This document shows, piece after piece, positions 5,303 to 7,399 of a stretch of 16,764 nucleotides of DNA. The stretch is taken from assembly GCA_020723935.1 (NCBI GenBank), contig DYHY01000002.1, positions 1,612 through 18,375 of the forward strand. The letters run 5' to 3'. A model generated the notes under the pieces. It saw only the letters and a program-made list of their open reading frames with translations, had not been told where the DNA came from and did not search any database. The stretch's first letter is position 1; every line of letters starts with the position of its first letter. The stretch is from Candidatus Micrarchaeum sp. GTDB lineage: Archaea > SpSt-1190 > DYHY01. The translations under genes and the position numbers were made by a program.

Positions 5303-5698
5303 ATGGCTGAGGAGCCTACCCTAGTGCTCCTAGACAGCTCGTTCATACTGAACGCCATGAAGTTCAGGATCTTTGACCTCGGCGAGATCCGCGCGGCGGT
5401 CGGGGGCCAGGCGAGGCTCGCTATACCGTCGGCCGTCGCATCGGAGCTCTCGCATCTGGGCCACTGGTCGGTCCTCGAATACCTCGAGAGGAGCGGCGTG
5501 GAGAAGCTGGAGGGCGCCGGGACGTACGCCGACAAGGAGATAGTCGCGATCGTGAAAAGCGCCCCGGGGAGGGTCGTCGTGGCGACGCAGGACGGCCCCC
5601 TGAGGGCGAAACTAAAGACTTTTAAAGCAAAATGCGGCCTCATAGTCGTGCGAGGCAGGAAGAAAATCGCGATGACTTCGTTCGGGGGAGTCGCCTAG
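5303..5698 (+). CDS. PIN-domain nuclease, Fcf1/UPF0129-like archaeal family
   Basis: This is a 131-residue single PIN domain. The acidic quartet that binds the metal ions is visible: D11 in 'VLLDSSFILNAM', E48 in 'PSAVASELSHL', D77 in 'TYADKEIVAIV' and D97 in 'VVVATQDGPLRAKLK'. The C-terminal 'KCGLIVVRGRKKIAM' is typical of the archaeal housekeeping PIN proteins related to the rRNA-processing nuclease Fcf1/Utp24, rather than VapC toxins. No antitoxin gene accompanies it. It starts one base after the zinc-ribbon gene, and its TAG abuts the ATG of the PPase-fold gene. A role in rRNA or RNA processing fits the neighbours. Confidence 0.85.
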   Translation: MAEEPTLVLLDSSFILNAMKFRIFDLGEIRAAVGGQARLAIPSAVASELSHLGHWSVLEYLERSGVEKLEGAGTYADKEIVAIVKSAPGRVVVATQDGPLRAKLKTFKAKCGLIVVRGRKKIAMTSFGGVA

Positions 5699-6292
5699 AT
5701 GGCCGGCCAGGGCCTCTGGAGGGACCTTCCGAGCGGGCAGAACGCCCCTGAGGAAATAAGCGTCGTAGTCGAAATCCTCAAGGGCGGGCGCTTCCGCTTC
5801 AACCTGCAGGGCACGCATCCGCGCCTAGAGGGGATCTTCTCGTCCCTCGCGTATCCGACCGACTGCGGCTTCATACCCCAGACATCCTGGGAGAGCGAGA
5901 AGCCCATAGAATCGCTCGTCCTCGTGGACGAGCCCACCTTCCCCGGGTGCATCGTCGCCTGCAGGCCAGTGGGGGTCCTCAAAATCCTCGGCGCAGAGGA
6001 GAAGAGGAGCGACAAGATCCTTTCCGTCCCGGTGGCGGACCCCAGGTACGAGAAGGCGAGGAGCCTCAAGGACCTCTCGCCGCACATACAGGAGGACATC
6101 ACGCATTTCTTCACGACGTTCCGCCAGTCCCAATCCGGGAGGGCGGGCACGTTCGAGCTCATCGGCTGGGGCGACGAGGCCGAGGCGAAGAAGATAGTCG
6201 CCCACGGGATGAAGGTCTTCAGGCGAAAGCTAGCCAAGAACCAGGCGTCCCTGGTCGAAGAGGTAAGGGAAGAGGAAGAAAGGAGTCTTTGA
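5699..6292 (+). CDS. Family I inorganic pyrophosphatase homologue lacking signature aspartates
   Basis: The 197-residue protein has clear family I pyrophosphatase architecture: 'EISVVVEILKGGRFRF' (19-34), 'LAYPTDCGFIPQT' (50-62), 'VLVDEPTFPGCIVACRPVGV' (74-93), 'RSLKDLSPHIQEDITHFF' (121-138). In active enzymes the segment after 'GFIPxT' is D-G-D-P-x-D, supplying three metal-binding aspartates. Here it is 'SWESEKPIESLV': by alignment these become S66, K68 and E71. The glutamate near the start (E25) and an aspartate near 105 remain, but the Lys/Arg/Tyr positions of the substrate pocket also differ. Catalysis of PPi hydrolysis is therefore doubtful, although the fold is kept and the gene is intact. 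It abuts the PIN gene and precedes rpo7 by one nucleotide. A C-terminal charged extension follows. Confidence 0.88.
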   Translation: MAGQGLWRDLPSGQNAPEEISVVVEILKGGRFRFNLQGTHPRLEGIFSSLAYPTDCGFIPQTSWESEKPIESLVLVDEPTFPGCIVACRPVGVLKILGAEEKRSDKILSVPVADPRYEKARSLKDLSPHIQEDITHFFTTFRQSQSGRAGTFELIGWGDEAEAKKIVAHGMKVFRRKLAKNQASLVEEVREEEERSL

Positions 6293-6293
6293 A

Positions 6294-6854
6294 ATGTACG
6301 AGATAGTCACTTTGAAGGAAAGTGTCAGGGTTCCGCCCAAGTTCCTGGAGGAGGACACGGCCGAATCCGTGAAGAAGGCGCTGCAGGAGAGCATCGAGGG
6401 GACGCTGGACAAGGACATTGGGGTCCTCCTCTGCGTCACCGAGGTCAAGGACATCTCCGACGGGAACATCATCGCAGGCGACGGCGCCGTCTACTACGAC
6501 ACGTCCTTCGACGCGCTCGTCTACAGGCCGGAGCTCCACGAGGTCTCCGACGGCGAGGTGATAGATGTCGTGGAATTCGGGATCTTCGTGCGCCTCGGGC
6601 CTCTGGACGGCCTCGTGCACGTCTCGCAGATCGCCGACGAGTTCATGAACTTCTCCAAAGAGGGCATCCTCACCGGGAAGAGCGGCACGCACTTGATAAG
6701 GGTCGGCGACAGGGTCAGGGCGAGGCTCGTCACCCTCTCGCTCAAGCAGACGTCGTCGTCGTCCAAGATCGGCCTCACAATGAAGCAGCCGGGCCTCGGG
6801 AAGACCGAGTGGCTCGAAGAGGAGAGGAAGAAGGAAACCGGAGGCAAGAAATAA
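6294..6854 (+). CDS. rpo7: DNA-directed RNA polymerase subunit Rpo7 (RpoE')
   Basis: Rpo7 forms the stalk of archaeal RNA polymerase with Rpo4, aids open-complex formation and binds the emerging RNA. The 186-residue sequence starts with the typical 'MYEIVTLKESVRVPP', followed by an SHS2-like N-terminal domain. An S1 RNA-binding domain (about 85-160) has 'GEVIDVVEFGIFVRLGPLDG' and 'LVHVSQI'. The C-terminus has the usual 'KIGLTMKQPGLG' followed by a charged tail. It begins one nucleotide after the PPase-fold gene, with AGGAAAGGAG-like purines upstream, and is followed by Spt4, as in most archaea. Identification is firm. Confidence 0.95.
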   Translation: MYEIVTLKESVRVPPKFLEEDTAESVKKALQESIEGTLDKDIGVLLCVTEVKDISDGNIIAGDGAVYYDTSFDALVYRPELHEVSDGEVIDVVEFGIFVRLGPLDGLVHVSQIADEFMNFSKEGILTGKSGTHLIRVGDRVRARLVTLSLKQTSSSSKIGLTMKQPGLGKTEWLEEERKKETGGKK

Positions 6855-6859
6855 CAGGT

Positions 6860-7048
6860 ATGGTGCAAAGGAACGTCTGCAGGAACTGCAGAATACTTGT
6901 CAAGGGGAACGCCTGCCCGCTCTGCAGGGGGAACGACCTGACGACGACGTGGGCCGGGGTTGCCGTGATCTACGACCCCGCCGGATCCCAGATAGCGAAG
7001 GAAATGGGCGTCGAGGCCAAGGGCACCTTCGCCCTGAGGGTGAGGTAA
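6860..7048 (+). CDS. spt4: Transcription elongation factor Spt4 (RpoE'')
   Basis: A 62-residue zinc-ribbon protein that pairs with Spt5 to form the processivity factor clamped over RNA polymerase. It has C7-x2-C10 and C19-x2-C22 ('RNVCRNCRIL', 'GNACPLCRGNDL'), then 'TTTWAGVAVIYDPAGSQIAK' with the Ser/Ile that form the Spt5 interface, ending 'GTFALRVR'. The start at 6860 gives the family N-terminus 'MVQRNVCRNC'. It is five nucleotides after rpo7, the usual archaeal order. Confidence 0.95.
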   Translation: MVQRNVCRNCRILVKGNACPLCRGNDLTTTWAGVAVIYDPAGSQIAKEMGVEAKGTFALRVR

Positions 7049-7069: not shown

Positions 7070-7399
7070 ATGTCAGACATACAAATAACCAGAAGGACAG
7101 AGGAGCCGCTTCTCAAGAGGAAGGCAGTCACGTTCCACGTGACGCACGAGGGGGGGCCGACGCCCAAGAGGAAGGAGATGAAGAGCAAGCTCTCCATCCT
7201 CCTCAGCACCGAGGAGCCCCTCGTCGTGATAGACAGCTTCAAGACGCAGTACGGGGTCAACAGGACCGCCGGCCGCGCGTTCGTCTACGCGGACGAGACG
7301 AGCCTGAAGGTCGCCGAAGGCAAGAAGAAGGTCCAGAAGGAGCGCGAGGGCAAGGCGAAGAAGGCCGCGCCCGGCGCGGCGGCACCCGCGGCGCAATAA
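7070..7399 (+). CDS. rps24e: 30S ribosomal protein S24e
   Basis: The 109-residue protein matches eS24: 'NPLLKRKE'-like 'EEPLLKRKAVTFHVTHEGG', 'PKRKEMKSKLSILL', and the signature 'VVIDSFKTQYGVNRTAGRAF' region (51-70). A Lys/Ala/Pro-rich tail ends it. It follows spt4 as in many archaea. The usual next gene, the zinc-finger S27ae, does not follow; a methyltransferase gene does. Confidence 0.95.
   Translation: MSDIQITRRTEEPLLKRKAVTFHVTHEGGPTPKRKEMKSKLSILLSTEEPLVVIDSFKTQYGVNRTAGRAFVYADETSLKVAEGKKKVQKEREGKAKKAAPGAAAPAAQ

Follow-up and report, generated by a model that had tools for sequence, protein, structure and literature searches.

The rpo7 locus

The window (the whole stretch of DNA analysed, 16,764 nucleotides) comes from an archaeal draft assembly of 1.14 Mb in 47 contigs, which is 91% complete. 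On its forward strand lies an open reading frame with a family I pyrophosphatase (PPase) fold, a putative pseudo-pyrophosphatase (5699..6292), recognized by translation, alignment, profile match and a structure model. It begins with ATG, encodes 197 amino acids and has no internal stop. Directly 5' of it on the same strand is the gene for a PIN-domain protein (5303..5698), assigned by weak profile matches to Fcf1/PIN_9. Downstream, also on the forward strand, are rpo7 (RpoE), which encodes the RNA polymerase stalk subunit (6294..6854; NCBIfam score 238 bits against a cut-off of 143), spt4 (RpoE2; 6857..7048) and the gene for ribosomal protein S24e (7070..7399), which belongs to the same operon as the PPase-like gene. 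The original prediction had described a full-length gene abutting PIN and rpo7, and this is what we find: the PIN stop codon (5696-5698) is followed by the ATG at 5699 with a gap of 0 nt, and 1 nt lies between the end of the PPase-like gene (6292) and rpo7 (6294). The GC contents at its three codon positions (0.60/0.43/0.85) resemble those of the PIN and rpo7 genes.

The gene was also said to keep the usual archaeal position of ppa, and it does, with at least 48 of 101 canonical archaeal ppa genes found beside rpo7, a lower bound given that rpo7 neighbours were found by similarity in the fetched flanks only. The operon position is thus inherited and is the ordinary archaeal one. Because canonical ppa genes are also found beside rpo7, this position alone does not point to a role with the polymerase, although it had been offered as a hint of one. 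Family f2 of the same class has neither PIN nor ppa at its rpo7 locus, and an rpo7-linked ppa can therefore be lost.

A family I fold

The protein matches PF00719 over the full domain (profile positions 1-150 of 153; 105.8 bits against a cut-off of 23.5, E 2.4e-30), with an NCBIfam equivalog score of 91.6, under the cut-off of 200. An AlphaFold2 model made from an alignment of the window protein with 33 relatives has a pLDDT of 84.4 and a pTM of 0.83; its input was an alignment of canonical PPases, which biases it toward the canonical fold. The model contains an OB-type beta-barrel and ends in a long C-terminal helix (residues 160-196). Its top match among solved structures is the archaeal PPase 3i98 (Z 25.6, rmsd 1.8 over 171 residues, 30% identity), and Foldseek agrees on this match. 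By homology and predicted fold, the window protein is a family I PPase.

The enzyme 3i98, a family I soluble PPase (PF00719) from Thermococcus thioreducens, shares with the window protein its fold and full length, and the operon position beside rpo7 is common to the family. The window protein differs from it in the replacement of 11 of 14 catalytic residues and in an extra acidic C-terminal helix at about residues 180-197. Automatic annotation would probably label the window protein an active pyrophosphatase.

Loss of the active site

We compared 14 active-site positions (E20, K29, E31, R43, Y51, Y55, D65, D67, D70, D97, D102, K104, Y141 and K142), numbered after the E. coli PPase. Archaeal family I PPases have 13-14 of these residues in 101 of 111 unique genomes, and all 79 bacterial relatives have 14. 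Only E20, Y51 and K104 are kept in the window protein. Four changes are conservative (K29 to R, K142 to R, Y141 to F and D70 to E); the others are not (E31 to N, Y55 to C, D65 to S, D67 to K, D97 to G or A, D102 to S, and loss of R43), with the exact substitutes at R43 and D97 depending on the alignment, as both positions adjoin indels. The metal-binding residues D65, D67, D70, D97 and D102 have become S, K, E, G/A and S, which is not the metal site of an active family I enzyme. The substrate-binding site has likewise departed from that of the enzyme, K104 being the sole identity among K29, R43, K104, Y141 and K142 (R, lost, K, F and R).

The metal-binding loop comprises residues S63-E71, whose codons span 5885..5911 of the forward strand. 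Here the sequence and alignment give S-W-E-S-E-K-P-I-E in place of x-Y/F-D-D-G-D-P-x-D, and the stretch W64-E65-S66-E67-K68-P69-I70-E71 stands against Y/F-D-D-G-D-P-x-D in relatives. The alignment confirms the original prediction that D-G-D-P-x-D is replaced by S-E-K-P-I-E and that D65, D67 and D70 have become S66, K68 and E71; with 11 of 14 catalytic residues changed, that prediction understated the loss. Its claim of a well-preserved scaffold also holds, with most non-catalytic conserved columns kept and the fold predicted to be intact. When a column counts as conserved if 80% or more of the canonical rows agree in it, the window protein keeps 3 of 14 catalytic residues against 21 of 30 other conserved columns (Fisher p 0.003), whereas canonical rows never have fewer than 13 catalytic residues and have a minimum of 21 for the 30 other columns. 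Because of this imbalance, the alignment argues that the active site has been lost selectively and not through general decay.

Other pyrophosphatases in the genome

The original prediction had proposed looking for a second PPase, either family II or membrane-bound, and the source genome has both, adjacent to each other on contig C29. The membrane PPase (L128:8842-10884; NCBIfam 923 against a cut-off of 783) has intact DVGADLVGK and DNVGDNVGD motifs. The family II PPase, with DHH and DHHA2 domains, lies 28 nt past it (L128:10913-11860; NCBIfam 306 against a cut-off of 283). Since both are canonical, PPi hydrolysis is doubly covered without the family I copy. No second family I PPase gene was found in the 91% complete assembly.

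Whether membrane and soluble PPases occur together in archaea was left open by a 2024 review (PMC11210485). The source genome bears on it by encoding membrane, family II and family I PPases, the last of which lacks its site.

Eroded copies in other archaea

Eroded family I copies also occur in other archaea. A genome from another family of the same class (G003) has one with 5 of 14 catalytic residues, in the order eIF2-gamma, PIN, ppa, rpo7. In a distant archaeal genus (g193 of family f101), three species carry a copy with 7-8 of 14 directly upstream of rpo7, where it is the first gene of its operon; one of these f101 copies is L253:6453-6974. A partly eroded PPase (10 of 14; L254:8621-9208) in f4/g59 and a very degenerate one of 158 amino acids (5 of 14; L129:3457-3933) in G035 both lie away from rpo7 in the fetched DNA. 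The copies in these four lineages resemble the window protein in having the family I fold, lost catalytic residues and a membrane PPase in the genome; they differ from it in which residues were lost, and only those of G003 and f101 lie beside rpo7. Accordingly, the triplet S66/K68/E71, whose conservation in a clade the original prediction had proposed to check, fails as a clade marker: the equivalent residues are N/E/D in G003 and, in f101, D, K or D, and R.

In the surroundings of two of these copies we observed the following. The f4/g59 gene adjoins a G1P-dehydrogenase-like gene and a CDP-alcohol phosphatidyltransferase gene, a context of lipid synthesis, which releases PPi. The G035 gene follows an intact membrane PPase gene after a few bases, as if the two formed one operon.

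A membrane PPase is present in all five lineages with an eroded copy, compared with 15 of 48 canonical carriers when counted by genome (p 0.005) and 9 of 23 when counted by family (p 0.02), both tests ignoring kinship. Within f2, three genomes (G005, G006 and G008; L125, L126 and L127) have a canonical bacterial-type family I PPase that is away from rpo7 and groups with that of E. coli in the tree, and no membrane PPase was found in these three. In other f2 genomes a membrane PPase is present and the family I enzyme is missing.

Two profile searches with the eroded copies, each of about 390 and largely the same archaeal genomes, returned no additional copy with a score close to those of the seeds. 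A scan of genome contigs gave no closer pseudo-PPase, the inspected rows being canonical PPases, mostly bacterial and one archaeal. From the sister genus (G001) there is just a C-terminal piece of the gene, lying at a contig edge, in which Y141 and K142 are canonical. A literature search mostly outside subscription journals turned up no account of inactive archaeal family I PPases.

The window and f101 copies group together in trees with support of only 83-94 (83 with the active-site columns masked), though the branches are long and the protein short, and the branch of the window copy is itself long. A single clade of the window, G003 and f101 copies is not rejected (p-AU 0.85). Shared derived residues did not serve to unite the window copy with f101: only three rare ones were seen, two of them catalytic, and several canonical rows share as many.

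The eroded g193 gene has a dN/dS of 0.08-0.11 over three pairs, two of them with near-saturated dS, compared with 0.07-0.12 for rpo7; the closest pair gives 0.10 (95% bootstrap 0.05-0.19). Because these values are about 0.1, like those of rpo7, the g193 copy is under strong purifying selection. As it is first in its operon, it is unlikely to be a mere coupling spacer behind PIN.

A probable non-catalytic role for the protein

We consider it probable that the window gene codes for a pseudoenzyme, a family I PPase without catalytic activity, and that its folded protein is kept for a non-catalytic binding or structural role. A non-enzymatic job is suggested because other enzymes cover the chemistry, eroded copies recur at the locus and one group of them is strongly selected. 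The window protein has presumably ceased to hydrolyse PPi, judging by its residues, and selection would be acting on this copy as well. The source genome may have acquired or kept its membrane and family II PPases, after which the rpo7-linked family I gene would have been freed from catalysis and its metal and substrate site would have eroded, the folded protein being retained through a second role. Most likely it would act as a scaffold or assembly partner that binds other proteins through its intact beta-barrel and oligomer surfaces, and those proteins might be products of its own operon. Of the binding or regulatory role originally proposed, the binding part gains from the predicted intact fold, the other PPases, the recurrence at the rpo7 locus and the purifying selection in g193, whereas the operon position is no evidence for a polymerase role and the idea of PPi or nucleotide sensing loses ground.

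The gene could instead be a decaying relic, drifting since PPi hydrolysis moved to other enzymes, its frame kept open solely by the harm that stops or frameshifts would do to the translation-coupled rpo7. The gaps of 0 and 1 nt to its neighbours, its long branch and the membrane PPase that always accompanies an eroded copy are what such drift might leave behind. We nevertheless think this explanation rather unlikely, if a serious one: the 21 of 30 non-catalytic conserved columns kept are within the canonical range, the eroded f101 copies have a dN/dS of about 0.1 in a gene that is first in its operon, and f2, of the same class, shows that the gene can be lost cleanly. Were the protein a sensor that binds PPi, phosphate or a nucleotide without hydrolysis and signals to transcription, the retained K104 and the arginines at K29 and K142 might provide the site. 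The loss of R43, Y55 and the metal aspartates makes this improbable. The residues at K29/R43/K104/K142 are moreover R/lost/K/R in the window protein, K/T/T/S in G003 and T or R/lost/K/K in f101; because the phosphate-binding set differs among eroded copies, no common ligand site is visible and one shared PPi sensor is disfavoured.

Several acids in the window protein (E65, E67, E71, E100, E101 and D105) adjoin the lost ligands in the sequence and may form a residual metal site, through which a rearranged enzyme might still hydrolyse PPi or another substrate. Against this stands the lysine at D67, which we take to be the position of yeast Asp117. In yeast, Asp117 activates the nucleophile (PMC11210485). 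Most of these acids are also absent from the other eroded copies, and we judge continued catalysis to be very improbable. The single draft assembly of 47 contigs invites the thought that errors of assembly or sequencing have altered a canonical PPase, and sequence error was a possible objection named in the original prediction. We reject this explanation as having practically no chance of being correct, given that 11 catalytic residues have changed while the frame is intact and its codon-position GC normal, and that independent genomes show similar erosion.

PPases are usually viewed as pure housekeeping enzymes, and a recurrent, folded, catalytically dead PPase beside an RNA polymerase gene would mean a second job. 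NURF38 of Drosophila, a PPase, is described as a subunit of a chromatin-remodelling complex where PMC2705796 cites Gdula et al. 1998, and on that account there is a precedent for PPases being stably built into complexes related to transcription. NURF38 is eukaryotic and has no homology-based link to the archaeal operon, and the window protein is tied to RNA polymerase by operon adjacency alone. The archaeal cases would separate the second job from catalysis. More speculatively, and with considerable doubt, several archaeal lineages might have recruited the rpo7-linked PPase into their transcription or translation apparatus as a conserved subunit or regulator without catalysis, once membrane or family II enzymes had taken over PPi hydrolysis.

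A different, short PPase-like family (about 134-155 amino acids) was observed in the archaeal families f48 and f41 (L130:3254-3715, L131:3125-3529, L132:3203-3640 and L133:3007-3459, with further loci L244-L250). Its PF00719 match is limited to the first 90-100 positions. Most of the aspartates are kept, but not D67, and the C-terminal half is different.
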